DNA from: Eubacteriales Family XIII. Incertae Sedis bacterium | GTDB lineage: Bacteria > Bacillota > Clostridia > Peptostreptococcales > Anaerovoracaceae | NCBI GenBank assembly: GCA_031276515.1 | Contig: JAISMX010000082.1 | Location: forward strand, 1 to 36,431 | Direction of reading: 5' to 3' | Length of the DNA: 36,431 bases | Part shown: positions 8,188 to 31,000 of the stretch, one piece after another | Layout of the letters: each line of letters begins with the position of its first letter | Numbering within the stretch: position 1 is the first letter of the stretch | Notes under the pieces: generated by a model | What the model was told of the DNA's origin: nothing | The model's input: the letters and a program-made list of their open reading frames with translations, nothing else | The model's database searches: none | Made by a program: the position numbers and the translations under genes

Positions 8188-8248
8188 TCGGTTTCTCCAC
8201 TTTCGCGCGCGCGTTTGGCCGCGCATCTTTTTGCTGACGTTTATTGAG

Positions 8249-11300: not shown

Positions 11301-14300
11301 GCCTCCGATGTCGGAGTAGACTTCATCGGTTATGGCTCTCTTTTCGATGTAAGAATCCGCTCCTCCCGCCTCCGTGATGAGCTCCTCCAGCGGCTTGCCC
11401 GTTTGACGGGTGAGGAATTCCGTCCTCCACGCATCGTAACCGCCGGCGTCCTCATTGCCGTCGCCGTTCGTGTCATAACCCCTGTAATTGTTGGTGGACA
11501 CGACGCTGTTCACCAGGTTGAAATGGGCTATCGAATTGCCGGCGGCGTAACCCGACACGCTTCTCTGGCCGAAGATGTAGCTGTCGCGCACCTCCATGCC
11601 CGCATGCCACCAGGACGTGCCGTTCCCGGCCATGCCGCCGGCCGAGTCGCCGGCCGCGCGGATGAAGACGTTCTTCACGTGAGACTTGTCGACCGCGTTT
11701 TGGTTGTTGTTGGTCTGGCCCTCCCCGAACAGGCCGCCCACCCTGCTCCTGCCCTGCACGACGGCGTTCTCCACGATGTTTTTCGGGTTGGCCAGGGCGA
11801 AACCTTTGAGGCTGCTCTCGTAGCCGGCCATGCCGCCGGCATAGTCTCCGTTCGTCTTCACAAGCGCGTTGGTCACCTTGCAGTTCGCGAACTCGGTGCT
11901 GCTCGCATAGCCGATCAGGCCGCCCACGATGCTGCCGGTTCCGCTGACGATGACATCGTCTATGCTGACGGTATCCAAGTCGGAGACGGCGCCGTAGCCC
12001 GCCAGGCCGCCGACGTTGCCGTTGCCCCGGACCCTTATATGGGACAGGTTTACGTTCTTCACCTTCGCCGAGAGATTGCCGAAGCAGCCCACATAGGAGC
12101 GCGCCGTACCGGAGACTCCGACCTTGATGTCTTCGAAGGCCATGTTCCGCACCAAGCCCTGCGCCTTGCCCACCACGCCGACGCCGTTGTCGCCCGGGTT
12201 GATCTCCATGTCCGAAAAGATCAGGCCGCTGAGCTCGCCCGCGACGATGCGCAGCAGACTCACGCTGCCCGTATAGCCCGAGAGCCTGTAGGCCGGCGTC
12301 TCGGGATGGTTCACGGCTTCCAGCCTGTTGACGGAGAGATTGCGCTTGACGTCGGCGGCGGGAATGGCGGAGAAGTCCACGTTTCCGAACACTTGGAAGT
12401 TCTCGAAGGTGTCGCCGTGTCCGCCTTCCGCCTCCAAGGCCATCAGCGTCTGCCAGTCGTCCAGGTCGTCGATGTCCCAGTACCACCTGATGGGGAAGTT
12501 GACTTCGCCCTTTACGGGGATATTGACGTCGGAGCCCACCGTTCTCACGCTCAATATGTTGTAGCTGTCCAGCCTCCGCTGCGGCTTGCCAATAAATTCC
12601 ACATCGATCCTCGAGACCACCATGTTCGGCAGACTCGGCGCGATAGAGACGGTAAGTGGATCTGTCTCTATCTTCATCGAATGCTCTCCCGGCCAGTACT
12701 CCAATTCTATGAATTTTTGGAGCGCCGTTCCCTCCGGGTGCTGCACGTAGATGGCGGCCTTGTTGTTTTCGCCCGCCACGACGAGCAGCACCTCCGCCGA
12801 GATCGACGCTTCGCCCATGTAGACGTGGCTCTGCCCCGCCAGCAATTCGCCCGCCTCGGAGCGCAGCTTGGGCAGTATGCCCATCTGCAGCTCCGAGATC
12901 CCGGTGTCCGGGTCCGTCGCGTTGTAGACGAAGGCGTTTCCGAGGCGTATGCTGTTCGTGTAGGTGCGCGGGTTTTTCAGGTCGTAGGGGTCGTCCTCGG
13001 ACCCGTCTCCGATGTGAAGCAGGGTCGCGTCGCCCGCGATGGTCTCCATCACGCTTTGATCGTTGAGCTTGCGCGGCACATCGCCGTTGATGAGCGCGCT
13101 GTCCAGCGCGTAGGCGTTGTTGCTCGCTATGGCGACGGCGGGGTCGGAAGCTTTCAGGATCGCGCCGTTGCCGGCAATCCTGTGTATGGCGTCGCCGTCC
13201 GCCGTACCCGTGTAGAGCGCCGCCGCGCTCGACAGGTCGCCGAGGGCCAGCGAGTTCAGGGGCATGCCGCCGGCGCTGCCCTGCGTACCCGCGACGCCGC
13301 CGAGCCTGTCGGTCATGCTCCGTATGTTCACCTTGTTCCAGGTGTTCTGCAGGATGGAACTGTTCGCGTAGTTGCCTATGATGCCGCCCGCGTGCTGATC
13401 CGAGGTCTCGATGCCGCCCGCCGCGTAGAGGTTGCGCAGCTCGCTGTTGCTCGCCACGCCCGCGACGCCGCCGACGCCGCGCGCCATGAGAGCGGCCGTG
13501 ATCTCCATGTCGAGACCGTACACCCAGCTGTTGCGCAGATTGGAGCCTTCCAGATAGCCCGTCAGGCCGCCCGCGGATACGTTGCTCGCTCGCGAAACGA
13601 GTTTCGCGCCGCTCACGGAGGAGTCCGCGACGTCGCCGTAGTGCTGTCTGGCGACCAGGCCGCCCATGAAGCATTCCTTCGTCGTCAGGTCCGAGGCGGG
13701 GCCGACGTAATCTATGTCCACAAGGCGCACGTTGCGCAGGACGCCGCCGCCGTAGAGCGCGCGCACAAAGCCCACCCATTGGTTTTCCGGCGCGTCGATC
13801 GTCAGGTTCTTCACAAGCAGGTTGCTGACCGTGCCCGTCAGGACGGCGAAGACGCCGCCGCCCTGCGTGTCGTTCGGCGCGAGGGTGATGTTCTCCAGGC
13901 TGTGTACGCCCACGAGATTCATGTCGTCGTCGTAGATGCCGCCGTCCAACTTGCCGCCGAAGACGTCGTTGTTGCCGCTCGCCCCTGCCGCGTTTTCGAT
14001 CCGGTTGCCGACCCGTATGTCGGCGGCCGGCATGCCCGCGAAGTTCACCAGGTCGGCTTTCAGGCGATAGTTCTGGGGCGGGTTGGCCGCCCTGAACGCG
14101 GCGGCGGCGGCGGATTTTTCGGCGTCGTTGCCGCCGTAGTAATCGACAGAATACTCTTTCATGTAGGCGACGATCGTGGACGTCCACTCCGACTCGCTGC
14201 CGATGGACTTGAAGAACTCGGCGTCCACGGGGAAGCCGCCGTTCGGCGGCGCATGCTTGTCGTTGTTGACCGCGTCCCAGCCATCGTTCAGCCAAGTCGG

Positions 14301-17300
14301 ACTCACGGGAGCGCTCGCCAGCTTGGTGACCAGAAAGTCCGTTACGAGATAGCGCGAGTAGTATTTCTTGGGTTCCGCGAGCAGCACCCACACGCGGGAG
14401 AGACCGTCCTTGTCCAGCTGGACGCGCTCGCTCAGGGTCTTGATCTCTCCGTCGGACAGGCCGAGACCGGTCTTGAGGTAACTCTTGTTCTCGTCAAACA
14501 TGTTCGGTCCCAGCACAAAGGCCTTGTCCATGTTCTCGACGCGAAGGTCGCGGAAGACCCTGTAATCCTTGTTCTTCAGCGTGAGCACGACGACGGCGTA
14601 GTTCTCCCTCTGCGTTTCCACGAGGGCGTTGACGAGTTCGACATTGTTCGCCGTCGCGTCGGGCAGCCGCACGTAGTCCTGCCGCGGCATCACGGCGCTC
14701 ATCTTCACGTGGGGATAGTAGCCCATGGGCACGGTGTTCGCGACGTCGAAGCCCGCGCCGAGCACCGAGGACTGCCAGTCTTCGCGGCGCAGGGTGTCCG
14801 ACATGACGCGCGTGTTGTAGTCCTTATTGTCGCCCAGACCGTAAGCGCCCACAGCCTCGCTGTCGCCGCTGTAATAGTAGACCGAGGTCTGGAACTTCGA
14901 ATTTTGGCTGCCCACGCCGGGACCTCGGCGGAGGGTGTGGTACCAGCCCGGATCCGACGGGTCTTCTTGCATTGTGCCCGCGGTGCTCATCTCGCCGGGC
15001 CAGGAAGCGCGCGCCTCATAGTACACCTGGCCCGCGCTGTAGGCGTTGCGCACCGTACCCGCGTTCACGCCCACGAGCGTTCCGATGCGCGAGCCGTTGC
15101 CGCCTATGTTCACCGACGGCGGCGAGCCGCCTTCGATCTTAATGTCGACGAGACTGTACACGTTCTCCACCAAGCCCCGCAGACCGTTGCTGGCCACGAC
15201 GCCGCCGAGGACGTCGACGGTGCCGGTGGCGCCGGCGTTCGGCAGGTGCGGCACCTCGACGGCGACATTCTCCTCCTTCGCCGCGTAGATGTAACCGTTG
15301 CGCACCGTGCCGGTGTTCGAGGTAACCACCCCGAAGGTGTTGATCGCCGAAATCGCATCCTCGAAGCAGACCACGAAGTTTTCGATGATGCCCGTGTTGT
15401 CAGAGGCGATCACGCCGAGCGAGGCGGTGCCGTTCCATCTCCGGTTATTGCCTTTCACCTTGAATATGACGTTGCTGACGGTACCCCTGTTTCTGTGAAT
15501 CAGGAGACCGTATTCTCCCACGGGTTTGTCCCCGCTGAGTGTGATGTCGAAGACGCCGTTCTTGATGACGCCGTTGCCGTTCATCGTCCAGAACAGGAAA
15601 CGCCTTCCCGGGACGTCCACCTTCATGGTGTAGCCCTGAAAGTCTATCATGCCGCCGAAGGTGTGCGTGTCGTTCGTTATGTTGGAGGTGTCGACTCCGG
15701 CCAGGTAGTTGTCCCTGTCGTCCGCGTTATTCGGGATGCCGTCGGGATTCACGTGGTCCCAAAAGAGATCGTTCACGACGACGAAGCGGCCGTTTTTGCC
15801 CGCGTAGTTGTTGTTCGTGATCTTGTTGAAATCCTTCATCGTCGCGATGAACTCGACCGGACCCTGCGTGTCGAAGGCTATGCTGCCCAGGGTCTTTTCG
15901 ATGGGGCCCAATTTGACGAAGAGTTCCAGCACGTAGTCGGAGCGCTCCGGCAGGGCTTCGAGAGTGACCGACTCTTTGATGCTTTTCTTTGGTTCGTGCG
16001 TGTCGGGATCCTCCCCGGGATTGTAGAATTTGGGAATTTCATCGCTATCCACCACGGTCTGCCCGTCCCAGCCCAGACGCTTCAGGCGCAGCCAATAGTA
16101 GCCTTCGCCGTCCTCCTCAATCTGCTCGCGTATGTCCGTCAGTTCCACGGTGAAGGTCGCGTCGTAGTAGCGCGGGGCCAATGACGCCGCCACCCGGTAC
16201 AGGCGCACGCTGCCCGAGAGACCCGCCTTCGCCACGAGACCGAAGTGGTCAATCTCCTTGTTGAAGACCAAAGTCTTCGCGTCGCGGCCCTCGTTGTACT
16301 CGGTCGCGTAAACGTTGAAGGCGTATTCGTGTTCCGGCTGCAGGTTTTCCAGTGCTATGAGATCCGGATTCTTCGGATCCAAACTCAGCGCCCGGCTGAG
16401 CACGATCTCCTTTGTCGCGATGTCCGTGACCACGAGCATGGCCTTGCCGTCCCTCGTGATGGCGTGGTCCGGGTCGTCCACGGAGACATCAAAGAGGTCG
16501 ATGGAGTTCGAAGCGATGAAGTACGTATCCTCGACCGGCACCCGGTCGAAGGGCGGCGGAGGAGGCGGGTCCTCCACGCGCACGAGACCCATACCGCCCA
16601 CAAGCAGACGGGCCGGCTTTTTCAGGGTTATGAAGGCATCGGGGTTTATGGTCGCCGGCACATCGTAGGACGCGCCGCCCAGTTCCACCTTGGCGCTCGC
16701 GGTCAGCTCGTAGTCGGAATCGCTCTCCAAACCGTTGAACTCCGCCCACCAGATCGCGGCGCCCGTCGTCCAGTCGTCGAAGTCCGCGTCGCCGCGCGCG
16801 AAGGTCACAGTGCGGATATCGTCCGGATCTATGGGCGCGTCCGGGTCGTCCGGGTCCGCCTTCGGCGTCGCCGTGAGGGTGACCTCGCTCAGCAGGAGCA
16901 GCAGCGTCTCGTTCGTCGCGCCCTTGTTGATTTCGACATTCATTCCCACGGCGGAAGCGCTGACGCGCATGTCTTCCTGCGGCGCGCTCAGCGAGAGCTT
17001 GCCGAGACTCTCTATGCCGGAGCTCATGAAGACGAGGCTGCCTATCTCGGCGCCCGTCACGGGCGCCTTGCCGTCTTCGAGGTCGTAGTCGCAGGTGATG
17101 ACGGCCTTGTAGCTCTTGCCCGGCGACAGGTTCGTGATGACGATGGACGCGTCGCCCGGCACAAAATGGGACTCCGAAGGCCCTCCCGTCGTCCCGTCCT
17201 CCCGGCGTATCTCGGTAATCGCCGGGATGAGCGCGGCTTCGCCGTCCGGACCGATCAGGTACTCGTAGATCGTGAGCTTGCGGTTGGACGGATCGGAGGT

Positions 17301-19352
17301 GGCGCCGTCCTTGTCCTTGAAGCTTATGTTCAGCCTGACGTTGGCGACGGCGTTTATCCCCGCCGTTATTTTGGCCTCGGGCGTCGCCTTGCAGGTTTTG
17401 AGCTTCCCCTCGACCTTGGGGTCGAGCGGCAGCTCGTTGCCGAAAGCGTCGTACGCTTTGACCACATAGTCGTATTCTTTATAGGATTCGTACATCTCGG
17501 AGGTGCGGAAGACCGTCTCGTCGCCCGCGAGGATCGAGGCCCTTTCGCTCGAGGACAGCGCGCTGTCCTTGCCGTCCGCCGTGAAGACGATCTTTTTCAC
17601 GTAGGCCCGCGCGTCCCTGCCGCCCGGCGTCTTCCCCTTCTCCGGGTCCGTATCCATGTACATGCCTTTGAGTTCCAGGCTGTCCGCGTAGAGGTCTCCG
17701 GGCTCGGCGTTGAGCAGCATCGCCGTGATCATGGAAATGGGCAGAGTTTCGATCTCGATCGCCGGGAGTTCTTCCTTTAGCTTGGTACCCTTCTCGTCCC
17801 TGTATTCAAAGTACGGGATGATCTCGTATTTCGTGTTCGGAGGCAGGTTGTCGACGTCGAAAGGCCCGGATTGCGAAATCGTGACGCGGCGGATCGTCTT
17901 GCCGTCGCGCTTGAACTCGAAAGTGACGCCCTTGCCCACGATGCGGCCGGTCGGGTCGTTTATGGTCGTGGAACCGGATATCGCGTAGACGTCCGCGGTG
18001 AATTCGCCCACGGTCATCGTCGGCTTCACGTAGTTGAAGCCGGGGGCGGAGGGGTCGGCCGGCTGTTCTTCTTTCAGCTCAATTTTCAGCTTCTGCTCGC
18101 CGAAGCGCTGGTTTTCGTGCAGCACGCCGTCCTTGTCGACGTAGTCGTATTCGCCGTAAATCTCGTAGGTCGCGCCCCATTCGAGGTCCTCGAATTTGAC
18201 GATGCGCGTGATGTAGCCGATGTCCGCGCCCTCAAAGCCGCCGGTGCTCCGTTGCCAGGTCTGCGTGTAGACCTTGTCGAAGACGGTTAGCGTAAGGTAA
18301 ACGCGGACGGAACCCACCAGCGCCTCGTTGGGGTCGTAGATGCGCAGCTTCGATTCGGCGACGTAGTCGTTTTGCAGGGGCGGATTGAAGTTGCCGCCGA
18401 ATTTGCCCAGCGACAGGAAGGGGCCGTAGTCCTCGGACGCGTCCGGGGAAGGTTTCAGGCTCGTTTTGGGTTTTTCCGGCTTCTTGGGCTCGGGCCAATC
18501 GGCGTCGGGCGAGACGCCCGGCGGGTCGGCCGGCAGCGGGTCGGCCGGGTTCTGCGGAGGGGCGGGCCGCGCCGCGCCGCCGCGCGCGCCGCGGTCGGCG
18601 TCGCTTCCGTCGCCCTGCGCGGAGGTTAGCTCGGTGTCGGGCCAGTCCGGCGGGGTTACGGGCAGGGGGCGCACGTCGGGCAAAAGACCCAGGCGGTAGA
18701 GGTATTCGTGGTAGCCGTAGCTCTTGTCGTCAAAGGCGATGACGCTGTCGGAACTGAGACCGTCTATGTGGCGCAGGACGAATTTCCCCTCGTCGTAGGC
18801 GTAGTAGCTTATGCCGTCCGGCCTGTGGTACATGAGGCTGTTGATCGGGATGAAGGCCACGTGGGTTCCGCTTTGGACGCGCGCGGGTATGGCGTTGCCG
18901 AAGACGTTCTTCTTCATCTGCACGAGTATGAAGTCGTAGGGGTCGGCCGGGGTCATGTCGGGGTTGAAAGAGCGCCCGTCGCTGACGAGCAGACCGTAGT
19001 AGCCGGGCAGACGCTCGAAGTCGTCGGTGACGAGCCTGAGGTCGTCGCTTATGCTCAGCATGGCGGTGGCTTCGTTGGCGAAGAGCGGCAGGGCCTTGTC
19101 GAGCTTTTTCTTGCGGTCGCCCGCGTAGAGGAGACCGGCGCGCTCGTAGAGCATGTCGAAGGGGCCGATGCGCTCGGGGGTGAGGGTGGCCAGGTCTTCA
19201 TCTTCCGATTGGCCGGTGAGCCCTTCGATGAAGCTTTCGTCGGGCAGGGCCAGCGCGGAGTAGCCGAGCTCGCCCAAGGCCGTAAATCTGTAGAATTGCA
19301 CGAAGACCAAAACCGCCGCCATTGCCAGCGCGATAAACAGTATTTTCTTCAT
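8331..19352 (-). CDS. Giant (3673-aa) surface protein with TM segments at both ends, Ig/FN3-like and GLUG-like repeats
   Basis: The start is ATG at 19352 with AAAGAGGTGG just upstream; the ORF-track start adds 13 unsupported codons. Layout: KK plus TM helix (about 4-24); head domain (about 25-230) resembling the other surface proteins of the cluster; Pro-rich linker (about 235-320); Ig/FN3-like modules to about 1160; a very long repetitive region (about 1160-2980) with GLUG-like units such as 'GGLAGYGAVSDLDTVSIDDV', probably a beta-helix as in M26 (ZmpA/ZmpB-type) protease N-terminal regions; a further globular part; an Ala/Gly/Thr/Glu-rich stalk (about 3340-3565); and a C-terminal TM helix with the basic tail RRSRKRRA. 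No HExxH protease motif was found. It is the last gene of the ATPase cluster, 60 bp after the 236-aa gene. It is probably an adhesin or filament component; function unknown. Confidence 0.9.
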   Translation of the reverse strand: MKKILFIALAMAAVLVFVQFYRFTALGELGYSALALPDESFIEGLTGQSEDEDLATLTPERIGPFDMLYERAGLLYAGDRKKKLDKALPLFANEATAMLSISDDLRLVTDDFERLPGYYGLLVSDGRSFNPDMTPADPYDFILVQMKKNVFGNAIPARVQSGTHVAFIPINSLMYHRPDGISYYAYDEGKFVLRHIDGLSSDSVIAFDDKSYGYHEYLYRLGLLPDVRPLPVTPPDWPDTELTSAQGDGSDADRGARGGAARPAPPQNPADPLPADPPGVSPDADWPEPKKPEKPKTSLKPSPDASEDYGPFLSLGKFGGNFNPPLQNDYVAESKLRIYDPNEALVGSVRVYLTLTVFDKVYTQTWQRSTGGFEGADIGYITRIVKFEDLEWGATYEIYGEYDYVDKDGVLHENQRFGEQKLKIELKEEQPADPSAPGFNYVKPTMTVGEFTADVYAISGSTTINDPTGRIVGKGVTFEFKRDGKTIRRVTISQSGPFDVDNLPPNTKYEIIPYFEYRDEKGTKLKEELPAIEIETLPISMITAMLLNAEPGDLYADSLELKGMYMDTDPEKGKTPGGRDARAYVKKIVFTADGKDSALSSSERASILAGDETVFRTSEMYESYKEYDYVVKAYDAFGNELPLDPKVEGKLKTCKATPEAKITAGINAVANVRLNISFKDKDGATSDPSNRKLTIYEYLIGPDGEAALIPAITEIRREDGTTGGPSESHFVPGDASIVITNLSPGKSYKAVITCDYDLEDGKAPVTGAEIGSLVFMSSGIESLGKLSLSAPQEDMRVSASAVGMNVEINKGATNETLLLLLSEVTLTATPKADPDDPDAPIDPDDIRTVTFARGDADFDDWTTGAAIWWAEFNGLESDSDYELTASAKVELGGASYDVPATINPDAFITLKKPARLLVGGMGLVRVEDPPPPPPFDRVPVEDTYFIASNSIDLFDVSVDDPDHAITRDGKAMLVVTDIATKEIVLSRALSLDPKNPDLIALENLQPEHEYAFNVYATEYNEGRDAKTLVFNKEIDHFGLVAKAGLSGSVRLYRVAASLAPRYYDATFTVELTDIREQIEEDGEGYYWLRLKRLGWDGQTVVDSDEIPKFYNPGEDPDTHEPKKSIKESVTLEALPERSDYVLELFVKLGPIEKTLGSIAFDTQGPVEFIATMKDFNKITNNNYAGKNGRFVVVNDLFWDHVNPDGIPNNADDRDNYLAGVDTSNITNDTHTFGGMIDFQGYTMKVDVPGRRFLFWTMNGNGVIKNGVFDITLSGDKPVGEYGLLIHRNRGTVSNVIFKVKGNNRRWNGTASLGVIASDNTGIIENFVVCFEDAISAINTFGVVTSNTGTVRNGYIYAAKEENVAVEVPHLPNAGATGTVDVLGGVVASNGLRGLVENVYSLVDIKIEGGSPPSVNIGGNGSRIGTLVGVNAGTVRNAYSAGQVYYEARASWPGEMSTAGTMQEDPSDPGWYHTLRRGPGVGSQNSKFQTSVYYYSGDSEAVGAYGLGDNKDYNTRVMSDTLRREDWQSSVLGAGFDVANTVPMGYYPHVKMSAVMPRQDYVRLPDATANNVELVNALVETQRENYAVVVLTLKNKDYRVFRDLRVENMDKAFVLGPNMFDENKSYLKTGLGLSDGEIKTLSERVQLDKDGLSRVWVLLAEPKKYYSRYLVTDFLVTKLASAPVSPTWLNDGWDAVNNDKHAPPNGGFPVDAEFFKSIGSESEWTSTIVAYMKEYSVDYYGGNDAEKSAAAAAFRAANPPQNYRLKADLVNFAGMPAADIRVGNRIENAAGASGNNDVFGGKLDGGIYDDDMNLVGVHSLENITLAPNDTQGGGVFAVLTGTVSNLLVKNLTIDAPENQWVGFVRALYGGGVLRNVRLVDIDYVGPASDLTTKECFMGGLVARQHYGDVADSSVSGAKLVSRASNVSAGGLTGYLEGSNLRNSWVYGLDMEITAALMARGVGGVAGVASNSELRNLYAAGGIETSDQHAGGIIGNYANSSILQNTWNKVNIRSMTDRLGGVAGTQGSAGGMPLNSLALGDLSSAAALYTGTADGDAIHRIAGNGAILKASDPAVAIASNNAYALDSALINGDVPRKLNDQSVMETIAGDATLLHIGDGSEDDPYDLKNPRTYTNSIRLGNAFVYNATDPDTGISELQMGILPKLRSEAGELLAGQSHVYMGEASISAEVLLVVAGENNKAAIYVQHPEGTALQKFIELEYWPGEHSMKIETDPLTVSIAPSLPNMVVSRIDVEFIGKPQRRLDSYNILSVRTVGSDVNIPVKGEVNFPIRWYWDIDDLDDWQTLMALEAEGGHGDTFENFQVFGNVDFSAIPAADVKRNLSVNRLEAVNHPETPAYRLSGYTGSVSLLRIVAGELSGLIFSDMEINPGDNGVGVVGKAQGLVRNMAFEDIKVGVSGTARSYVGCFGNLSAKVKNVNLSHIRVRGNGNVGGLAGYGAVSDLDTVSIDDVIVSGTGSIVGGLIGYASSTEFANCKVTNALVKTNGDYAGGMAGYESSLKGFALANPKNIVENAVVQGRSRVGGLFGEGQTNNNQNAVDKSHVKNVFIRAAGDSAGGMAGNGTSWWHAGMEVRDSYIFGQRSVSGYAAGNSIAHFNLVNSVVSTNNYRGYDTNGDGNEDAGGYDAWRTEFLTRQTGKPLEELITEAGGADSYIEKRAITDEVYSDIGGVNSGTAPQQFCVVAYSFVGGKAHNVGGLRGSGSTSTSGRDSNYCLVIGTTVRGEKSVGGAIGSMGSGQLVATAINADVAGLDDVGGVFGRMGRKFDLSGDKITHIGSVYFVGNVTATAANGRAAGLANMADTMMPMGIMPRAPAGNLVAANIKTGAGGSAAFFYNRLPGDDWDTSRHAVFKGSTIKVGTSAPTAPVYTPGDHEILTANWIWTTEMLKNYGYWRDSLGGYFGANNAFNYGGLNATTVAPVTAPKGFMPYRTMQNTHGGWSKIVPYQNGKDGPYGYNDPPTVSNYYTLTGIKGGIPIPTDTNPDSIVIVTMAMEPALVPQQLPAAEIYAAGGASGLNLEFDAENPETYFRVTTLEGVALAESRVERRAYTLDYDFATPLTVEVSDGYSSEFYHVDPAALRRSVMLEGDNFYYTDGLGLRDKDNRLLPGDFINLRDGQALNSDGSLYDAVTGLPLTRVPGIAVLREEASPLYRFALSGYEIETYAGFSLSRSADGAESLLPSPAIVKNGKLTLYDPDMSDVYDSLISDARGGEEYLSVLDGGRIRNERAPLAMPSEFKNAGLAHFAHNLNTELPYVLARYKNGLVNGFNYLTGELLNFESKGDLSLLDYAADYFTSAPDPRESEAARGYMELKPLQEALTVHGLGELLEGAENAPSGDSAGVAGASAANGGGVGNGQGGGDDPFSAGGGAEATGASAGEATDNKPGAGPKGETAPAGEGSAGETTDGASAGGGKTAVAPRGDALGAGQGAAMNGTGQGNGTATAVGTGAGNRQGTGAATGDDPAAGEDKDKQTGEAATDGDRTAAAGEGATDEGTAGGAADAATGEGADGEAEAAAGEGAADGAADAATGEGTAGETAASGEGAAGGASASANRPAHTGDLSIPKPPEKKTYTAVYDAKTGQYVFYDVDSLLAAGDVEPAIVATEESKTRAAEILAEAEAAEALPTDNPMFDKGIKVLLALFLASFLLLYIGLNRRSRKRRA
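8650..9310. repeat. Low-complexity Ala/Gly/Glu/Thr stalk-coding region
   Basis: The 3' part of the giant gene is built from irregular repeats of CCTTCGCCGG(C/T)CGC-like units, encoding GEGAA-, ATGEG- and TAGE-type peptides. It probably makes an extended wall-spanning stalk before the C-terminal membrane anchor. Such DNA is prone to length change and to assembly errors. Confidence 0.75.
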
Positions 19353-19412
19353 CCGGTACCACCTCTTTGTTTCCGCGGTCTCGATTCGCATGACCGCGCG
19401 GGAACTTTCCTC

Positions 19413-20123
19413 TTACTTTAACGGGGCCAGCATGCTCGGGTCGGTGAACAGCAGCAGCTCGGTGTTGTCCTTCCTCAGGATGTCTTTGCCGAGGTCTATG
19501 CTGTAGCCGCCTTCCATTATGGCCGTGACTTCTTTTTCTTCCGTGTTTTTGCTTATGCCCTCGGCCGCGTCTTGCAGGTAGATTTCGGCGTTCGCGTTGT
19601 AGGTTACCGTCGCGCAGGCGCCGGGGGTGAAGCGCAGCTTCGTCTCGCCGACGACGAGGGTGCCTTTTTCCAAAAACAAATACGTGTCGCGGCCGTCGAA
19701 CAGGAAGCCGCCTTCTATCTCTATGCTGTCGTCGCCGTCGCGCAGCACGGGGTTTTCTCCCCCGAAGTCGGCTTCGGCGAAGTATTCGACGCGGCCCTGC
19801 CGCCCGTCCCGCGAGACGGCGAGCATGGCGGTCGTGATCAGCGCCCGCTTCTCGCCCGCGTAGTAGACGATGTTGGCACTCAGGGGGTAGGTCTTGTTGC
19901 CGTCGGCCAGCGTGGCGCCCCGGTTCGTGATGCTGATCTTGGCGTCGGCGGCGTGCTCGAAGCGGACGCCGACGTCGTAGTGGTAGGTCTCGACGCCCGG
20001 CTCGAATTGCTTCATCCGCTGCATGTACCAGGCGACGGCCGCGATGAGGACGGCGGCCACCACGACCAGCAGGGCGACCAAGAGGGCCGCGGTTTTCGGG
20101 GAGAGACGCAGACGCCGGCTCAT
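19413..20123 (-). CDS. 236-aa single-TM protein, 'head-domain only' relative of the cluster's surface proteins
   Basis: A basic N-terminus (MSRRLRLSPK) precedes one TM helix (about 12-33), then a roughly 200-residue predicted beta-rich extracytoplasmic domain with short strands and glycine turns ('FLFDGRDTYLFLEKGTLVVG'). It ends 'SIDLGKDIL...', a pattern also found at the end of the head region in the 685-aa ('AIDLTRIL') and 2028-aa ('VDLSRRVIG') proteins. There are no stalk or repeats. Its ATG overlaps the stop of the preceding TM protein (ATGA) and has GGAGG six bases upstream, so it belongs to the ATPase transcript. It could be an adaptor or a minor subunit assembling with the larger proteins. 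No known family was recognised; homology to the others is inferred by eye. Confidence 0.85.
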   Translation of the reverse strand: MSRRLRLSPKTAALLVALLVVVAAVLIAAVAWYMQRMKQFEPGVETYHYDVGVRFEHAADAKISITNRGATLADGNKTYPLSANIVYYAGEKRALITTAMLAVSRDGRQGRVEYFAEADFGGENPVLRDGDDSIEIEGGFLFDGRDTYLFLEKGTLVVGETKLRFTPGACATVTYNANAEIYLQDAAEGISKNTEEKEVTAIMEGGYSIDLGKDILRKDNTELLLFTDPSMLAPLK

Positions 20124-20749
20124 GGGCGGCCTCCGTTCTCGCCGGCCCCTGCGCTCCCGCCGCCGAATTCGGGCGAGGGGGCGCGGTTTTTGCGCTCCAA
20201 AAGGCCGCCGACGTCGCGCAGCGTAAAGTAAAGGCTGTACAGTATGACGAAGAGGGCCATGAGTATGTATATGAGCAGTACGCTTCCGTCGCCGCGCACG
20301 TCGCGCAGGAAGCCGCTGAGCATTCCCGTGACGAGCAGGGCGCAGAAGATCACCGCGTTGTTTACGAGGGCAAAGAGAAGTCTGCCCGGCCCGAAGGAGG
20401 GCGGGGTGAGGACTTCCACGAGGAAGATCCCGACGAAGAGCAGGATGTGCGAAAGCCCCGGCTTTATGCCGAGACAGAGCACGGACACGACGAATATCTG
20501 CTTGAATATTCTGTCGGCGAGCCAGAGGAGCTCGGGTCCCGTCATACCGAAGAACATGCCGACGAAGAGGACGCGCCTTTTCTGCCAGCCCATGTTTTTC
20601 GTGAAGACGACGGTCAGGACGAAGAGCAGGGCGGCGCAGACGAAGCTTATGAGCGCGATTTCCCAGAGCGCGCCGACGCCCTCGATGAATTCATCGAGGA
20701 ATCCGCTGCCCGGTACGACGTCCAAGATTTTTCGCAGCAACGCACTCAT
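20120..20749 (-). CDS. Polytopic (about five-TM) membrane protein in the position of a missing membrane stator
   Basis: A 209-aa protein with hydrophobic stretches near residues 29-50, 57-78, 84-114 (one or two helices), 124-147 and 156-176, ending in a Gly/Ala-rich hydrophilic tail. The ATG overlaps the epsilon stop (ATGA), and its own stop overlaps the 236-aa gene's start. No subunit a is encoded in the cluster, so this is the only candidate integral partner for the c-like ring. A stretch 'SFGPGRLLFALVNN' (Arg123) faintly recalls the R-L-x-x-N motif around the essential arginine of subunit a, but the helix order and flanks do not match. I treat that as weak. It could equally be a transporter-like scaffold for the surface proteins. 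Family not recognised. Confidence 0.85.
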   Translation of the reverse strand: MSALLRKILDVVPGSGFLDEFIEGVGALWEIALISFVCAALLFVLTVVFTKNMGWQKRRVLFVGMFFGMTGPELLWLADRIFKQIFVVSVLCLGIKPGLSHILLFVGIFLVEVLTPPSFGPGRLLFALVNNAVIFCALLVTGMLSGFLRDVRGDGSVLLIYILMALFVILYSLYFTLRDVGGLLERKNRAPSPEFGGGSAGAGENGGRP

Positions 20750-21129
20750 GCTCCGCCCTCGCCGCCTTCGGCCGTTTCGCGGCGCTTCGCGATGGCCGTT
20801 TCGTTCAGGATCAGGAAGAAAACGTTGTGGACGTGGCAGAAGAAACCGCGCACGCCCTTCATCGTGTGGTATACGTCCTTTCCGATCAGGTCTATGTCGC
20901 CGTCGAGCTGGCTCACGATCGGCGTGTAGTCTTCCAGGATCATCAGGTTCGCGTTTCTGCCGCGTATGCGGATGGCGCTGATGCCCTTGTGTATTTCAAG
21001 CCCTTTCTCGAAGCTGGATATCTGCGCTTGCATCTTGCCTTCGCGCTCCTGCGCGTAGGCGAGCAGATCCGTCGCCGAGAAGGCGGGTTCGCGGCTTTTC
21101 GCGCCTTCGTTCGTTCCCGTTTCGCTCAT
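20746..21129 (-). CDS. atpC: F1 ATPase epsilon-like subunit (beta-sandwich domain only)
   Basis: A 127-aa protein directly after beta (19-bp gap, GGGAGG before the ATG), the standard atpD-atpC order. Residues about 50-115 match the epsilon N-terminal beta-sandwich: 'AIRIRGRNANLMILEDYTPI' corresponds to the usual 'G..G.LGILPGHAPL' segment, followed by a 'GFFCHVHNVFFLIL' strand. Two differences from a normal epsilon are visible. The C-terminal helical hairpin that normally senses ATP and inhibits the motor is absent; the chain ends soon after the sandwich in a polar AEGGEGGA tail. There is also an extra N-terminal segment of about 45 residues, part of it probably helical ('LLAYAQEREGKMQAQISSFEKG'). 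It should bind gamma and the c-like ring. The call rests on position plus moderate similarity. Confidence 0.75.
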   Translation of the reverse strand: MSETGTNEGAKSREPAFSATDLLAYAQEREGKMQAQISSFEKGLEIHKGISAIRIRGRNANLMILEDYTPIVSQLDGDIDLIGKDVYHTMKGVRGFFCHVHNVFFLILNETAIAKRRETAEGGEGGA

Positions 21130-21148: not shown

Positions 21149-23326
<2,178 letters not shown>

Positions 23327-23330
<4 letters not shown>

Positions 23331-24697
23331 CCGGCGGCCTCTCTCTTGACGGCGGCGGTCAGGGTTTCGACGACGGGGCCGAAGCGCTCTTTCATCTCTT
23401 CGGGGCGCACGGGGTCGAATATGTACTGGTTCATGCGGTTCATGAGTTCGCGGCCGCCTTGGATTTTGGCGCGCATTTCCGGGCTCATTTCGTCGACGTT
23501 GGCGAGCTCGAAGACTTCGCGCGTTTCCAGATAGGAGAGCAGTTCCCTTCTTGCGGCCGTGCCGAGGGCTTTCATTTCGGCGGTCTGCACGGCGCCGCCC
23601 AGCCTCGATACGGAGAGGCCGAAGTCTATGGCCGGGCGCTGGCCTTTTTCGAAGGCCTTGGCCGAGGTGACGATCTGCCCGTCGGTGATGGAGATGATGT
23701 TCGTGGCGATGTAGTCGGTGATGTCGCCGCCGCGCGTTTCGACGATGGGCAGCACGGTGACGGAGCCGCCGCTCTTGTGCTGGCATCCGAGTTCGAGCAT
23801 GGACGCGTGGGTGTAGAAGATGTCGGGCGGATAGGCGTCGCGGCCCGGGACTTTGCCGGCCAGCAGACTGATCTCCCTGTATACGTTGGCGTGCTGGGTC
23901 AGGTCGTCTATGACGACGAGGACGTCGCGCCCTTTTTGCATGAATTCGACGGCCATGGACAGGCCCGCCTGCGGCGTGAGGAAGAGGGCCGGCGCGCAGT
24001 CTTCCTGGAAGGCCGTGAGAATGAAGGTGTAGGACATGGCGCCCTTTTGCAGGAGGGCGTTGTAGATTTCCTTCACGGTCTTTTTGCTCTTGCCGAGGGC
24101 GATGTAGATGCAGAGCGGCTTGGGGCCGTCGCCCGCGGTTTCGTTTTTGCGGTTGACGATGGCGTCCAGGGCCAGCTGGGTTTTGCCCGTTTTTTTGTCG
24201 CCGATGATCAGTTGTCTCTGCCCGCGCCCTATGGGGTAGAGCAGGTCTATGCCGCATATGCCCGTGTAAAGGGGCCGCTCCACGGAGGTGCGGTCCATTA
24301 TGGGAATATTGGGCGCTATTGCCGGTATCTGGCGCAAATTTTCGAATTTGTTTCCGCTCAGTTTGTCTTCGCCGAAGATGTCGACGATGTGGCCCGGGTA
24401 GTCTTCCGAGAAGGCGGCCCGGAAGGGTTCGCCCGTCGCGGTGACTTCGTCGCCGACGTAGACGGGTTTGTGTTTTTTCACGACTTCGACCGTGACGCCC
24501 GTCCTGCCTATGCGGCTGACGTAGCCTTCGGCTTTGTCGCCGATGCGCACGCGCTCGAAGTAGCCCACTTCGTCGAGGCCGCCGGCTTCGAGGATGTAGT
24601 TGCTGACGCGCACGACCTTGCCCATGTCGTAGACGTTGTTTTCGCCTTTGATGGCTTCGATCTTCCTGTTTACGATATCCTGTATTATTCCGCTCAT
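23327..24697 (-). CDS. atpA: F1-type ATPase alpha subunit (shortened)
   Basis: A 456-aa protein starting at ATG 24697, which overlaps the preceding stop (ATGA) and has GGAG ten bases upstream; the ORF-track start 24 codons earlier lies in the neighbour gene. Visible motifs are the alpha-type P-loop GDKKTGKT (166-173), Walker B 'VLVVIDDLTQHANVYREISL', 'PGRDAYPPDIFYTHASMLE', 'YIATNIISITDGQI' and the arginine finger Arg365 in GLSVSRLGG. It is about 45-50 residues shorter than ordinary alpha. The N-terminal delta-binding extension is reduced and the C-terminal helical domain is trimmed. This is the regulatory nucleotide-binding partner of beta in the hexamer. The trimmed N-terminus suggests that the contact with the peripheral stalk differs from the standard enzyme. 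Confidence 0.96.
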
Positions 24698-25503
24698 CCG
24701 CTTATGTCTCCGTTTCTCACCGAAAAGTCGTATGTCCGTCCGTCGGCTATCACATATACGCCTTCGCATACGCCGTCGTCGTATTCCGTCAGCACGGGGC
24801 GCCCGTCCGAAGCCGCCAAGGTAAAGCGGTCGTTCGCGTCCCCGGTGCGGATCACGACCTCGGGCGCCTCGCGGAAGGCGCGCACCTTCAGCCAGTCGAA
24901 GAAGGCGATGACGCCTTCGCCGGAGGTGCGCAGGAAGCTCTCCAACAGCTCGCGCTGTTCGTCGCCGGTCAGCGTCTCCCGCAGTATCCGGAAGGCGTCG
25001 GCGTCGTCGAGACAGCAGAGCTTGTAACGAAGGTCAAGGTCAAAGAGGGCCAGTATTTCGCGCGCGGGGTTGCGCGCGCGGGGTCTGGGCGCGCGCCGTA
25101 TGCGCTCCAGGGCGGCTTCGACGCTCGCGCTTTTGTCGGCGTGGGCGGAGGCTCGCAGGGCTCTGTAGCTTTCGGCGAAGCCTTCCGGGCGGTATTTGCC
25201 GCCCAGCAGACCGAGGATGTCGGATACGCCGGAGGCTTCGCCGGCGCCCGAGGTTCCGGCGGCGCGCCGAAGCGGCGCGAGGGCCGCGTCCTCTTCGGCT
25301 TTGGCTCTGAGTTCTTCGATTTCGCGCAGCAGCGCTTTTAGTTCGGCTTCTTTGTTTTCCAGGAGTTCGTCATAGACGTTGGCTCTGTGGAGCATGTTGA
25401 TTCTGGAAAATTTTCCGAGCCGTCTTGCGGCGTTCCTCAGTATGAAGAAGAACAGCCCGTTCATCAGGATGAGCAGCGTCGCCACCGCTAAAAATATTCC
25501 CAC
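24694..25503 (-). CDS. Peripheral-stalk protein: b-like TM/coiled coil joined to a delta-like C-terminus
   Basis: A 269-aa protein starting at GTG 25503 with GGAGG about ten bases upstream, between the c-like gene and alpha, exactly where atpF and atpH normally lie. One N-terminal TM helix (about 2-22) is followed by a charged coiled coil (about 37-75, 'LLENKEAELKALLREIEELR'), as in subunit b. A helical middle follows. The last ~55 residues ('CEGVYVIADGRTYDFSVRNG') resemble the conserved delta C-terminal 'GG..V.IGD...D.SVR..L' segment. I read it as a b-delta fusion, comparable in principle to the b-delta fusions of mycobacteria. Similarity is modest, so the delta part is less certain than the b part. 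It should tether the alpha/beta hexamer to the membrane. Confidence 0.78.
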   Translation of the reverse strand: MGIFLAVATLLILMNGLFFFILRNAARRLGKFSRINMLHRANVYDELLENKEAELKALLREIEELRAKAEEDAALAPLRRAAGTSGAGEASGVSDILGLLGGKYRPEGFAESYRALRASAHADKSASVEAALERIRRAPRPRARNPAREILALFDLDLRYKLCCLDDADAFRILRETLTGDEQRELLESFLRTSGEGVIAFFDWLKVRAFREAPEVVIRTGDANDRFTLAASDGRPVLTEYDDGVCEGVYVIADGRTYDFSVRNGDISG

Positions 25504-25557: not shown

Positions 25558-25899
<342 letters not shown>

Positions 25900-25953: not shown

Positions 25954-28011
25954 TTAGATGCGCAGGGTGATCGGGGGCTGGGACGCGGGCGGTTTCGCGC
26001 TCTTTTTGATGCCGGCCGGAATGGCTTGCGCGCCGCCGCTTTCGCCTTCGGGCGCGTTCGGCGTCTGCTCGACGCCGCCGCCTTCGGCCGGGGAGACGGG
26101 CGGCTCGGCCGGCGGGGCCGGCTGTTCGGCCGGGGGCTGCGTCGGCGGCTCGGCCGGCGGGGCCGGCTGCTCGGGCTGCGTCGGCGGCTCGGCCGGGGGT
26201 GCCGGCTGCTCGGGCTGCGTCGGCGGCTCGGCCGGCGGGGCCGGCTGTTCGGGCTGCGTCGGCGGCTCGGCCGGGGGCGCGGGCTGCTCTGCCGGAGGCG
26301 CGGGCGGGGCCGGCTGTTCGACCGGCGGGGCCGGAGGCGCGGGCGGCTCAACCGGAGGCGGAACGGGGACTTCCTCCGCGTCGTCCGTGACCTTCATTCC
26401 AAATGGAGCGGCGCTCGACGAGGTCGTGTTCTTGACGGAGACGTCCGCGAAGGCCATGGTGACGGGTTCGCCTTTGTATGTGCAATCTTCGAGACGTAGG
26501 GTCAGATACGCGCATGGATCGTACGTCAAGGTGCATTCCCAACCTCCCGAAGAGGCTTTTGCGATGTCCAGCGTCTCTTCGTCCATGTATGTGCCGGGAC
26601 CGATGTCGTTCGCGGATTGACCGCCGTACAGACGCACCTTGCCGCCGCCCAAAACGTACTCGGAATCGAGACGCACGATGAAGGTCAGGCTCTTCGTCTT
26701 GAGGTGCGTCGGTCGTATGTAAGCCGTGATGGGCAGGGTCGATATGCGCACCATGTCCACGATCTCCGGCGCGGCTTGGCCGAAGGAGTGATATCCGAGG
26801 CTCACGGTGTAGGAGGTACCCGGTTTGAGGTCGTATATCGTCGCGTTTTTGGCGGCCACGTTGAGGTCCATGCGCTTGGAGTAACCCGAGCCGCCTCCCA
26901 CGACGACGAGTTCGTCGACTTGCAGGAAAACGGAGCCGTAGGCGTAGCCGGGGTCGATGACGGCGTAGTGCGCCGTCAGGCTCGTCGCGTCCGCGTTGAC
27001 GCCGAGGAAGGCGATGTTGCGCCGCAGCGTGATGTTGGCGTCGTCAAGACTGCCGCCGCCTTGTCCGTTGCCGTTGCCGGCGACGCCGTCGCCGCCGGCG
27101 CCGCCGGCGCCGCCGTTGCCGCCCATGCCGCCCGTGCCGCCGCCGCCGCCGATGCCGCCGCTGCCGCCCGTGCCGCCGATGCCGCCGAGACCGCCGATGC
27201 CGCCGAAGCCGCCCGTGCCGCCCGTGCCGCCCGTGCCGCCGATGCCGCCGGCGCCGCCCGAGCCGCCGCGTATGGTGATCACGTCACGGCCTTCGCCGAG
27301 AGGATCGTCCGCCGCCGCATCGCCGCCTTCGCGGCTCTTCAGCGCGTCCATGCCCATGGCGGAGGTTCCCAGTATGCGCGTCAGGTCGATCGCGTTGTCG
27401 CTCATGCTCAATTGCTCGTTGGCGATGTCAAAGCGCGCTTCCCCGCAAATTATTGTCATTGGTTCCAACGTCTTCATGTTGATGCGGTCGTTCAGGAGCT
27501 GCGCGTTGCCCAGCCTGTCGAGCACGATGTACAGGAAGTTGTTGGCCGCGAACAGGCCCGATTCGTCCACGATCGTGCCGCCCGTCATCACGTAGCGCCG
27601 GTCGGCGAGCTTGTAGAAGGAGGCGTTTTCGTAGTCGTTCACCTCCGTTCTGGCGCTGATCGGCTCGACGCTGCCGTCGTAGTAGACGCGGTAGCCGTCT
27701 CCGAACAGCCACAGCTCCGAGGACGCCGTGTCGTATACGAGGGGATGCTCTCCCAGATCGTATTCGTTTTCGGTGCCGGGGTAGCGCATGTGGTAGCCGC
27801 CCTCCTTGGATTCGCGTATTTCCGCTTGCCCCATGGCCGTGATGCGGTCGCTGTTCTTGTCGTACACGATGCTGTCAGGCGACAGCGCGTACACCGCCTC
27901 CGGCCTGACGTCCGCGCTGACGCTCATCCATCCCAGCAGTCCCGCGTTCAGCAGCACCAGCACGCCGAAGATGTTGAACACCATCATCACTTTTCGATTG
28001 AACCTGCGCAT
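25954..28011 (-). CDS. 685-aa membrane-anchored surface protein with head domain, Gly-rich linker, Ig-like modules and Pro-rich tail
   Basis: The start is ATG at 28011 (MRRFNRKVMM) with AAGGA seven bases upstream; the ORF-track start 26 codons earlier lacks support. Layout: TM helix (about 9-27, uncleaved-looking); head domain to about 235 resembling those of the 2028-aa and 236-aa proteins; Gly-rich linker of GGx triplets (about 245-322); two Ig/FN3-like modules (about 325-550, 'LKPGTSYTVSLGYHSFG', then 'STLPITAYIRP'); and a Pro-rich tail with 13-residue repeats PAPPAEPPTQPEQ (about 550-640). There is no sorting signal or SLH domain. It lies 150 bp before the c-like gene. It is probably a structural surface component handled by the ATPase; no known family was recognised. 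Confidence 0.88.
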   Translation of the reverse strand: MRRFNRKVMMVFNIFGVLVLLNAGLLGWMSVSADVRPEAVYALSPDSIVYDKNSDRITAMGQAEIRESKEGGYHMRYPGTENEYDLGEHPLVYDTASSELWLFGDGYRVYYDGSVEPISARTEVNDYENASFYKLADRRYVMTGGTIVDESGLFAANNFLYIVLDRLGNAQLLNDRINMKTLEPMTIICGEARFDIANEQLSMSDNAIDLTRILGTSAMGMDALKSREGGDAAADDPLGEGRDVITIRGGSGGAGGIGGTGGTGGTGGFGGIGGLGGIGGTGGSGGIGGGGGTGGMGGNGGAGGAGGDGVAGNGNGQGGGSLDDANITLRRNIAFLGVNADATSLTAHYAVIDPGYAYGSVFLQVDELVVVGGGSGYSKRMDLNVAAKNATIYDLKPGTSYTVSLGYHSFGQAAPEIVDMVRISTLPITAYIRPTHLKTKSLTFIVRLDSEYVLGGGKVRLYGGQSANDIGPGTYMDEETLDIAKASSGGWECTLTYDPCAYLTLRLEDCTYKGEPVTMAFADVSVKNTTSSSAAPFGMKVTDDAEEVPVPPPVEPPAPPAPPVEQPAPPAPPAEQPAPPAEPPTQPEQPAPPAEPPTQPEQPAPPAEPPTQPEQPAPPAEPPTQPPAEQPAPPAEPPVSPAEGGGVEQTPNAPEGESGGAQAIPAGIKKSAKPPASQPPITLRI
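26104..26298. repeat. 39-bp tandem repeat encoding the Pro-rich tail
   Basis: Three to four near-identical 39-bp units (for example 26143-26181, 26182-26220, 26221-26259) encode TQPEQPAPPAEPP. Flanking partial units extend the array. The unit is a multiple of three, so slippage would change the length of the tail without breaking the frame. Confidence 0.88.
27045..27275. repeat. GCCGCC-based repeat encoding the glycine-rich linker
   Basis: Irregular 9-bp units of the GCCGCCGAT / GCCGCCCGTG kind on the plus strand encode GGx triplets (GGIGGTGGTGG...). It lies between the head domain and the Ig-like modules of the 685-aa protein, matching the position of the collagen-like linker in the 2028-aa protein. 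Confidence 0.85.
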
Positions 28012-28098: not shown

Positions 28099-31000
28099 TT
28101 ATCCGCGATTGTATTCCAGGCTTGCCTTCTGGTTCAGGAAAATTTCCTGCCCCGTATCATTCTCGGCGTAGAAGCTCAGGGCGATGGTGTAGCGCCCGGA
28201 CGCCGTCAGCTGCGGAGGCAGTATAAAGGTATAGGTGCCGCTGCCGTCGGGATCTTCGTCAAAGTTCGGCGAGCCGGAGAAATCGACCTTGGCGGAGTAG
28301 CTGACGGCATTACCGCCGTCTTGGTAGACGGTGTACTGTATCTTCTTCACGTCCGTCAGTTTGACGCTGTCCGTGAAAGTGAGCTTGACCCTGCCCGTGA
28401 CGTCCGCTTGGGAGGCCGCGACCTTGCCGATGTATATGCCGCGTCTGTCGGTGGTGGTGGCCGTCATCTCGTGGATGACGTAGTCCGGGTTGTCGAAAAG
28501 GAAAGCCGTGCTCTCCAGCGACGGATCGCTTATGTCGGGTACGCTCTCAGCATTGGCGAGATTCGTGACGGCGTACCAGCGCAGGGTGTAGGTCTCGTTT
28601 TCGTTCAGGCCTTCAAAGCGCATCGTCTTGACACTGTCCTCGACCGTGTACACGCTGTCCTTGCCCACCGAAGCGCCGCTGCCGGTATCGGGCGTCACGT
28701 CCTTGCCTTTTGAGTTGAATATGCGCATCTTGTATACGCCCCTGGGGCTGCCGACGATGACTTTGTGGGGATCGAAATCGTAGGTGTTGACTTTCAGAGC
28801 GTAGTGGGATACAGGATGATTCTCGATGTACTCCGGAGTCACCGCGGCGGTGAAGTTCGGCATGCTCAGCTGCGGCATGGTGAATTCATAGGTCTTCTGC
28901 CCCACCTGGCCCGCGGGTTTGTCGGCTAATGCGCGCGGCAATCCGTCGTGCGGAATGCCTGTGGCGGAGGCCACGGCCGTGACCTCATAAGTGGTACCCG
29001 GCTTCCAGAAATCTTTTTCCGGTTCCGATCCTGTTACTCCAAACAGCCTGTTGCCTTCCGTGTACAGGAAGCGCACGTTCATGTTCGCCGAGGGCGTCAT
29101 ATAGTAGGACGGCAGGAAATTGCCGCTCTTTTGCGCGCGCAAGCGGTTGTGATTGAAGACGCCGGGGCCGGCGTCGATGTCGTGGTAGTCGATGATGGAA
29201 TACGGGCCGTCCTTCACCTTGATGGAATAGTACATATCGAAGCCGATCGTCGAACTCAGCGGGAAGCTCAATTTGATGGCCTTGTTCGTGTAGCTGATGG
29301 GGTCGAAGCTGATCGACTCCTTGTCCAATCCGCCGATGTTCACCTCTCCGCCCGTATGTATCTCGTAGAGATGGCCCGCAGCCGTATCGCCCGGGTAGGC
29401 CGGGTCGTACAGCGGGTATTCGTTTGCACCGGAGCCGTTGTTGAAGTTGGCGTACAGCTTGACCCAATACGTGGTGTTGGCCGTGAGACTGTCCAATGTC
29501 ACGGTAAGGTCTTGCGGAGCGGCGTCAAGAGCCGCGTCGCCGGTGAAGAACGGCGAGGCAGCTATCTGCGTGGTACCCTTGTCGCTGTACACCACCACTT
29601 TGATCTTTTGGCTGCCGGTCAGATTGTTGCCGTTTTCGAGCGACAGCGTCAGGAGCGCGGCATTGGTGCCAACCTTTTTCTCCTTCAAGGTCACTTCCGG
29701 GACGAGACCCGGCTTGTTCACGGTCTGGGTGTCGCCGCCCCCCCCCGGTTTATTGAGGGACGTTCCTTGCAGGGGTTTCAGATTCAGCACGGTCCCGTTC
29801 CCGAGTTTGAGACCGTCGCTCGTGACGGTGAAGGGCTGGCTGCCTTCGCCCGCTGCAGCCGCGAGCGCGGTCAGCCAATTCTGGTAAGACAGCGTGCCGC
29901 TCCCGGCGGACGCGTCAAATGGAGCGTTGACGAAGAACAGGGACTGGCTCGCGGAGGAAACGCTCAACAGCTGCTTGCCGGAGTTGAGAATCAGATACGA
30001 GGCATCGGCGGTTTCGCCGGAGGTTTGCAGCGCGAAGAGCTGATTGGCGTGGTCCGTCGAGGGCGCCAGCGAAAAGCCGCCGTGTCCGTCGTCGTAGTGG
30101 ACCTTCACCTTAAAGTCAAGCGAACTTGCGGCTTTGACGGGATTGTTGCCCGGGCTCACCTCAAACATGGTGTAGGGCAAGGAGGCCGTGCCGGAGCTTA
30201 CCGGCAGAATAAATTCATACGGCTGGACAACGTTGTTGAGCTTGGCCGTCACCTCGACGGCCGCCACGCGTTTCAGCCGCTCCGCGTCGAAGCCGTTCAG
30301 CGCGATCACAAAGCGGTTTTGCGCGGCCTCGGCCGTCACGTTGAAGTTTATGTTGGCGGTGGGCCAGGCGAAAGAGCTGTTCGGCGCGTCAAAGTAGCGA
30401 CGGAAGACTTCTTCTTCCGTCGCGGCGGCGGCCAAGGCATAGGGCTTGCTTTGCACCTTGGCGACGTAGATTCCTTCGGAAGATGCGACGCCGATGCCGC
30501 CGTCTTTAAAGACATTGTCGGCGGGTCCGTTCAAGTCCGTCAGATAGGCGTCGCCACCGCCGCCCAAGCGGCTTATCTTCACCCACTGATCGGCGCCATC
30601 ATATGCGACCAGCGCTCCGTCCGGGTCCATGGCGCGGTACTTGATCTCGTTCGTGCCATTTCCGCCGATATCCCAAGGATAGAATTCGAACTTGAATTCC
30701 TGCTTGGGGGCGTCGAGACGCCTCGAATGCAACACGGCATCCGGATCCGCGTTCGGACCTCCCGTCGGGAAGGGGTATACGCCGCTGCCCAGATCGAGCT
30801 GCGCGGTGTAGGTGAAGAAGTACTGTTCGCCCCGCCACGCGGCGGCGCCCGCGGGCGTGGGGAGATAAGCCGTGAAGAGGGAGGTCTTCGCCTCCTGCTT
30901 GGGGGTCGTCTTGTCCTGACTGGGATCGTCGTCAAAACCCACCACCAGGCGCGGCAGCTCTCTTGAAGAGATGTTGTTGAGCTGCGCGGGGAGGAAGACG

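Follow-up and report, generated by a model that had tools for sequence, protein, structure and literature searches.

The window analysed here, that is, the whole stretch of 36,431 nucleotides, contains a cassette of 11 genes on the minus strand, which run from position 34185 to position 8331 in the order slp, s711, c, b/delta (bd), alpha, gamma, beta, epsilon, X, p236 and giant (Table 1). The window is GC-rich and its genes read cleanly under table 11, which rules out a mycoplasma genetic code. As the original prediction had it, the gene that precedes c does not encode subunit a but a surface protein, the single-pass s711. It was equally right in considering X the only multi-TM gene of the cluster: X alone has more than two membrane helices, and its AlphaFold2 model shows five long helices able to span the membrane, together with a short one.

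Table 1. Features of the cassette and of its surroundings in the window.
Feature	Position	Strand	Description
slp surface protein	28099..34185	minus	2028 aa; N-terminal anchor, shared beta module, weak fn3 match
s711 surface protein	25954..28011	minus	685 aa; N-terminal anchor, shared beta module, GGX glycine repeat
c-like ring subunit	25558..25803	minus	81 aa; TTG start; Thr instead of the ion-binding carboxylate
b/delta-like (bd) stalk protein	24694..25503	minus	269 aa; N-terminal membrane anchor, delta-related C-terminal half
alpha	23327..24697	minus	456 aa; retains the N-terminal segment and the Arg finger; C-terminus truncated by about 70 residues relative to canonical alpha
gamma, diverged	22518..23330	minus	270 aa; HHalign 99.5%
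beta	21149..22531	minus	460 aa; Walker A Lys and catalytic GER Glu conserved
epsilon-like	20746..21129	minus	127 aa; weak profile match to the N-terminal part of epsilon
X	20749..20120	minus	209 aa; ATG start, stop 20122-20120; polytopic membrane protein
p236	19413..20123	minus	236 aa; single-pass surface protein, beta-rich ectodomain; putative partner of X
giant surface protein	8331..19391	minus	3686 aa; N-terminal anchor, shared beta module
HD_5 protein	7120-8226		HD-GYP-type; downstream of the giant gene
SLH protein	5552-6877		Listeria-Bacteroides repeat; downstream of the giant gene
Surface protein	804-5399		subtilase S8, YDG and SLH domains

The X gene overlaps both of its neighbours, epsilon and p236, by 4 bp, so that translational coupling, which had been proposed for the epsilon side, is plausible on either side. 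Homologues of X are found after epsilon in at least 70 loci, including essentially every complete locus, and, in consequence, X is a genuine gene and no chance ORF. Leaving aside one short contig (L062), X is absent from cassette loci only at contig ends and in a single locus of Coriobacteriales (L032), where the cassette seems to end with epsilon and is followed by housekeeping genes, X, p236 and giant being absent. In 11 loci, X and p236 form one continuous protein, which is good evidence for a physical partnership between the two.

The c subunits of F-type enzymes carry Asp or Glu at the carboxylate position, which was located as the residue twenty positions past the rotor-loop Arg. At this position, the 74 members of the c-like family have Thr (33 members), Ala (28), Ser (8), Val (4) or Met (1), and none of them has an acidic residue, whereas the same count in canonical c controls gave Glu in 10 out of 10. 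Moreover, no acidic residue recurs inside either helix among the 74 members. The defect which had been noticed in the c gene of the window is, hence, a property of the c-like family, not of one gene. The family matches canonical c with an HHalign probability of 98%, and its RNPE rotor loop, which meets gamma and epsilon, is conserved. The known mechanism of ion pumping is thus closed to the c-ring, which has lost the ion carboxylate.

The remaining F1-like subunits were compared by HHalign with their counterparts in canonical operons taken from related genomes. Alpha and beta reached 100% and gamma 99.5%, and the C-terminal half of bd matched delta with 80% and shares with it the ending ...GGI.I..GDK..D.SI; the b part of bd was not detected by profile (4%). 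The epsilon-like protein matched canonical epsilon with 28% over 75 residues of the N-terminal part. Members of its family are mostly shorter than canonical epsilon, and thus the helical, regulatory C-terminal domain is probably missing. The Walker A Lys and the GER Glu of beta, as well as the Arg finger of alpha, are conserved in nearly all members, and these intact catalytic residues point to an alpha/beta head that would be active as an ATPase. In some Bacilli (L071, L075, L093), the alpha ORF is as long as about 890-1090 aa, which suggests an extra N-terminal domain; an F1 subunit of the Mycoplasma mobile G1-ATPase similarly bears an additional domain.

The cassette lacks a gene for subunit a, as judged by PF00119, NCBIfam and HHalign comparisons of the cassette proteins tested, and the original prediction, which had found none in the cluster, stands in this respect. 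X itself was compared with subunit a and with other proteins in several ways: (i) among 59 X members scanned singly, no consistent Pfam or NCBIfam family appeared, and never PF00119; (ii) HHalign of the X profile against canonical subunit a, with 26 sequences and then with a larger set, gave a probability of 1.1-1.2%, while the same approach recovered the other subunits except for epsilon and the b half; (iii) a global HHalign comparison of X with subunit a returned no alignment; and (iv) a PDB sequence search with the X profile gave no match. A search of an anti-phage defence library likewise brought up nothing relevant. The stretch 'GRLLFALVNN' of X had been read as a faint echo of the R-L-x-x-N motif of subunit a. 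This echo is unsupported, since its Arg is not conserved in the X family: Lys or Arg occupies residue 122 in 68% of the members and residue 123 in 43%, at the very start of a helix.

A different picture is drawn by the predicted structure. The AlphaFold2 model of X, built on the family alignment (pLDDT 85.7, pTM 0.75), has helices at residues 14-51, 57-66, 71-93, 99-114, 121-150 and 155-189, and a second prediction, made for a natural X-p236 fusion, gave the same helix order as X alone. In subunit a, a membrane helix is followed by a short helix, a hairpin and a long hairpin, and the model of X has this same order. A Foldseek search of the model against the PDB returned nothing significant. 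Nevertheless, 5 of the best 46 rows are subunit a/Fo entries (PS3, an engineered Fo, Chloroflexus twice, and chloroplast), with E-values of at least 4 and TM-scores of 0.32-0.43 (about 0.37) that are near the top of the list. As only 13 distinct relatives were listed when subunit a of the same genome was used as a PDB sequence query, this recurrence is striking, though it is no test. By descent, X may be either a subunit a that eroded after the loss of the ion site or an unrelated recruit; the modelled helix order hints at the former. The claim that X is unrelated to subunit a may in consequence not hold: the lack of any profile match agrees with it, but the helix order and the recurring, non-significant fold matches hint at the opposite. 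On these two grounds X could descend from a subunit a and have changed so far that its sequence no longer shows it, a possibility to which we give slightly less than an even chance. In any case, X resembles subunit a (PF00119) in size and modelled helix order and differs from it in the lack of a profile match and of the conserved Arg, as well as in gene position, given that X comes after epsilon and subunit a before c.

The same likenesses could be taken to mean that X functions as a subunit a, albeit a very divergent one, and that the complex pumps ions by way of an ion site of an unusual kind. Such a reading would account for the helix order of X and for the weak recurrence of subunit a among its Foldseek matches. 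But not a single one of the 74 c-like members has an acidic residue at the ion site, the X helix that matches subunit a bears no conserved Arg, and the genome already possesses a canonical F1Fo operon, all of which makes an ion pump very improbable.

That canonical operon is located on a separate contig (C129) of the same genome, and its subunit a gene lies beside those of b, delta, alpha, gamma and beta. A subunit a elsewhere in the genome thus does exist, amid canonical partners, while many cassette genomes have none: out of 49 other cassette genomes, subunit a was found elsewhere in 33 and not at all in 16, although these genomes are mostly MAGs and incomplete, so that single absences are weak evidence. 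V-type subunit I is also missing in 13 of the 16 genomes without subunit a. This pattern of absence makes it unlikely, as far as gene content can tell, that the complex always borrows the housekeeping subunit a.

X might instead be an accessory factor outside the motor structure, either an assembly factor like AtpI or an exporter of surface proteins. Assembly proteins (AtpI/UncI) often travel in atp operons, and the fast evolution of X seen in the family comparison, together with its failure to match any family, would suit a protein of this kind. An accessory role is, nevertheless, quite unlikely for a protein that is fused to p236 in 11 loci, occurs in essentially every complete locus and fills the only slot emptied by the loss of subunit a.

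The surface proteins are the only constant partners of the cassette, and most of the complete loci inspected have slp and s711 at the start and the giant surface gene at the end. The surface proteins p236, s711, slp and giant have related N-terminal modules, according to HMM-HMM comparisons that are single-pair scores rather than database searches: the p236 module matches those of slp (93%), giant (88%) and s711 (85%), and the s711 module those of slp (95%) and giant (63%). Five of the six pairs are therefore in the range of 63-95%, the exception being giant versus slp, with only 14%. In s711, the GGX glycine repeat sits after the membrane-proximal module; a glycine content of at least 45% over 40 residues occurs in 42 of 69 members of the s711 family, and the repeat is a possible polyglycine-II stalk. 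Regarding p236, its part of the X-p236 fusion model begins with a membrane helix and continues into a beta-rich domain predicted with confidence, for which the PDB fold search of the fused model gave nothing meaningful (TM about 0.1). The gene can travel with c or with X, as indicated by (i) the two split loci examined, in which one block comprises s711, c, p236 and giant, and the other the bd, F1, X and slp genes; and (ii) four Bacilli in which p236 is ahead of c. The original prediction had suggested an X0 membrane part that grips the surface proteins. The X-p236 fusions and the constant company of surface proteins support such a grip at the genomic level.

Among gut Bacillota, Coriobacteriales and Bifidobacterium, cassettes of this type occur at no fewer than 80 loci. 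A first search for relatives had revealed X-containing copies of the operon in two other genomes, and the gamma alignment, when used to search GTDB genomes, then gave 128 relatives, the best 80 loci of which were taken. With iterated HMMs, the order s711-c-bd-alpha-gamma-beta-epsilon-X-p236 was identified in 57 loci, and most of the others end at a contig edge. The hosts belong to Oscillospiraceae, Family XIII, Lachnospiraceae, Peptococcaceae, Bacilli, other Bacillota and Coriobacteriales, and also include Bifidobacterium colobi; operon order and content are conserved across Bacillota and Actinomycetota. Since named isolates are among them (Lachnospiraceae bacterium G11, Chakrabartyella piscis, with a complete genome, and B. 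colobi), the function of the cassette is directly testable. Some genomes or MAGs have two copies (L022 and L077; L034 and L038). Two weak gamma matches within the same order (G139 and G150) were discarded, as they belong to other operons which have no c, X or p236 of the cassette kind.

Three Lachnospiraceae (L073, L074 and L078, with L199 and L200) have an F1 locus without c and p236. A loss of c was ruled out in them: a gene of the c-like family was found elsewhere in all three genomes, and it is ion-dead in the two that were read. In the two such Lachnospiraceae that were examined, s711-c-p236-giant is located elsewhere in the genome.

It is hardly conceivable that the cassette is a decaying duplicate of the ATP synthase which lies beside surface-protein genes by chance. 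The one locus that looks truncated after epsilon (L032) would agree with decay, but the same order and content are found across phyla, the catalytic residues are conserved, and the 34 beta sequences sampled fall into one clade with support of 100/100. No description outside mycoplasmas was found in the open-licence PMC literature, and the cassette is apparently a widespread, undescribed relative of the ATP synthase in gut bacteria.

Three known systems can be compared with the cassette. The first is the canonical bacterial F1Fo, whose c, delta, alpha, gamma and beta subunits have homologues in the cassette that are arranged in an unchanged order relative to one another; this is also true, if weakly, of epsilon, and the catalytic residues are intact. 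Compared with it, the cassette has lost the c carboxylate, lacks subunit a, has b and delta merged and the C-termini of epsilon and alpha shortened, and has four surface proteins and X added. In terms of F1Fo features, the catalytic motifs of alpha and beta are present, and so are stalk and rotor (gamma and delta, a weak epsilon, b undetected), but the membrane carboxylate of c and a subunit a (PF00119) with its conserved Arg are not. As these two defining features fail, the cassette is not an ion-pumping F1Fo. The second system is the N-ATPase ('alternate F1F0', TIGR03305/TIGR03324), which resembles the cassette in being a second F-type operon in a genome that also has the housekeeping one. 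N-ATPases retain subunit a and a carboxylate-bearing c, and the window proteins stay below the cut-offs of their models (beta reaches 418 of the 752 bits required, and alpha 314 of 750.5).

The third system comprises the F1-like X0 ATPases of mycoplasmas, which act on surface machinery and do so without c and b (PMC12994834, PMC3369863). The Type 3 enzyme, MSC_0618-0624, is needed for the surface MIB-MIP system (PMC12994834), and the Type 2 enzyme, or G1-ATPase, serves gliding in M. mobile (PMC8406192, PMC11864180). Like the cassette, they have F1-like alpha, beta, gamma and epsilon, lack subunit a and are encoded beside surface-protein genes. But while the mycoplasma clusters encode the 12-TM Protein 1, Protein 2 and Protein 5 and have no c, b or delta, the cassette has a c-ring, a b/delta stalk, X and p236, and genes for those three proteins are not found in it. 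HHalign gave at most 2% in the pairs tested between X, c, bd or p236 and Proteins 1, 2 and 5, the mycoplasma profiles consisting of four sequences only; homology of X with Protein 1, or of bd with Protein 2, was not recovered by this method. The window beta is likewise below the NCBIfam cut-offs for the mycoplasma proteins, with 387 bits for MSC_0618 (cut-off 570) and 393 bits for MMOB1670 (cut-off 850). In the beta tree, the cassette clade is sister to the Type 3 mycoplasma beta (99/99), though this grouping involves two long branches and a distant outgroup. The cassette ATPase may, judging from this tree, be sister to the mycoplasma F1-like X0 ATPases; by analogy, the complex may work as they do, yet by its composition it is no member of the group.

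This possible kinship raises the alternative that the complex hydrolyses ATP but does not rotate. The conformational strokes of F1 would then reach the surface proteins through X and p236, with the c-ring as a mere anchor, as has been proposed for mycoplasma Types 2 and 3. In its favour are the sister relation of the betas in the tree and the precedent of mycoplasma ATPases that work surface machinery without c and b (PMC12994834, PMC3369863). However, the cassette has kept both the rotor (c, gamma and epsilon) and the stalk (b/delta), with conserved contact motifs, which would be needless without rotation, and this alternative consequently seems unlikely, if less so than an accessory role for X.

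The reading we favour, with moderate confidence, places X, as the membrane subunit, on the stator side of an ATP-hydrolysing, F1-like motor without ion transport, where it occupies the slot of subunit a and is linked to the surface proteins. The alpha3beta3 head, with its intact residues, would hydrolyse ATP in the cytoplasm, and hydrolysis would drive a rotor composed of gamma, the shortened epsilon and the c-ring, all of them homologues of the canonical parts, if weakly so in the case of epsilon. The b/delta-like protein, whose C-terminal half is homologous to delta, would serve as the peripheral stalk and hold X, which would replace subunit a as the stator surface against the c-ring. X, in turn, would hold the single-pass p236, to which it is fused in some loci. 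Torque or strain would then pass to p236 and to the three surface proteins with a related module and, from there, to very large extracellular proteins. The cassette would thus probably spend ATP on moving or reshaping the cell surface rather than on pumping ions, and the movement might serve adhesion, gliding, the release of bound ligands or work on the wall.

The accepted view is that rotary ATPases possessing a c-ring either pump ions or act as ion-driven synthases. More broadly, and with a chance that we put not far below even, the cassettes may constitute a rotary motor family of gut bacteria, in which an ATP synthase was turned into a machine for turning or working very large surface proteins; an ion-dead c-ring would be its rotor, X would stand in for subunit a, and the load would consist of four related single-pass proteins. 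The gliding and antibody-shedding ATPases of mycoplasmas would then be its reduced descendants or its sisters. If this is true, a rotary engine has been re-used for mechanical work outside the cell, with rotor and stalk kept and the ion carboxylate lost in every member, and its ion-channel subunit has been replaced by a subunit fused to a surface protein.
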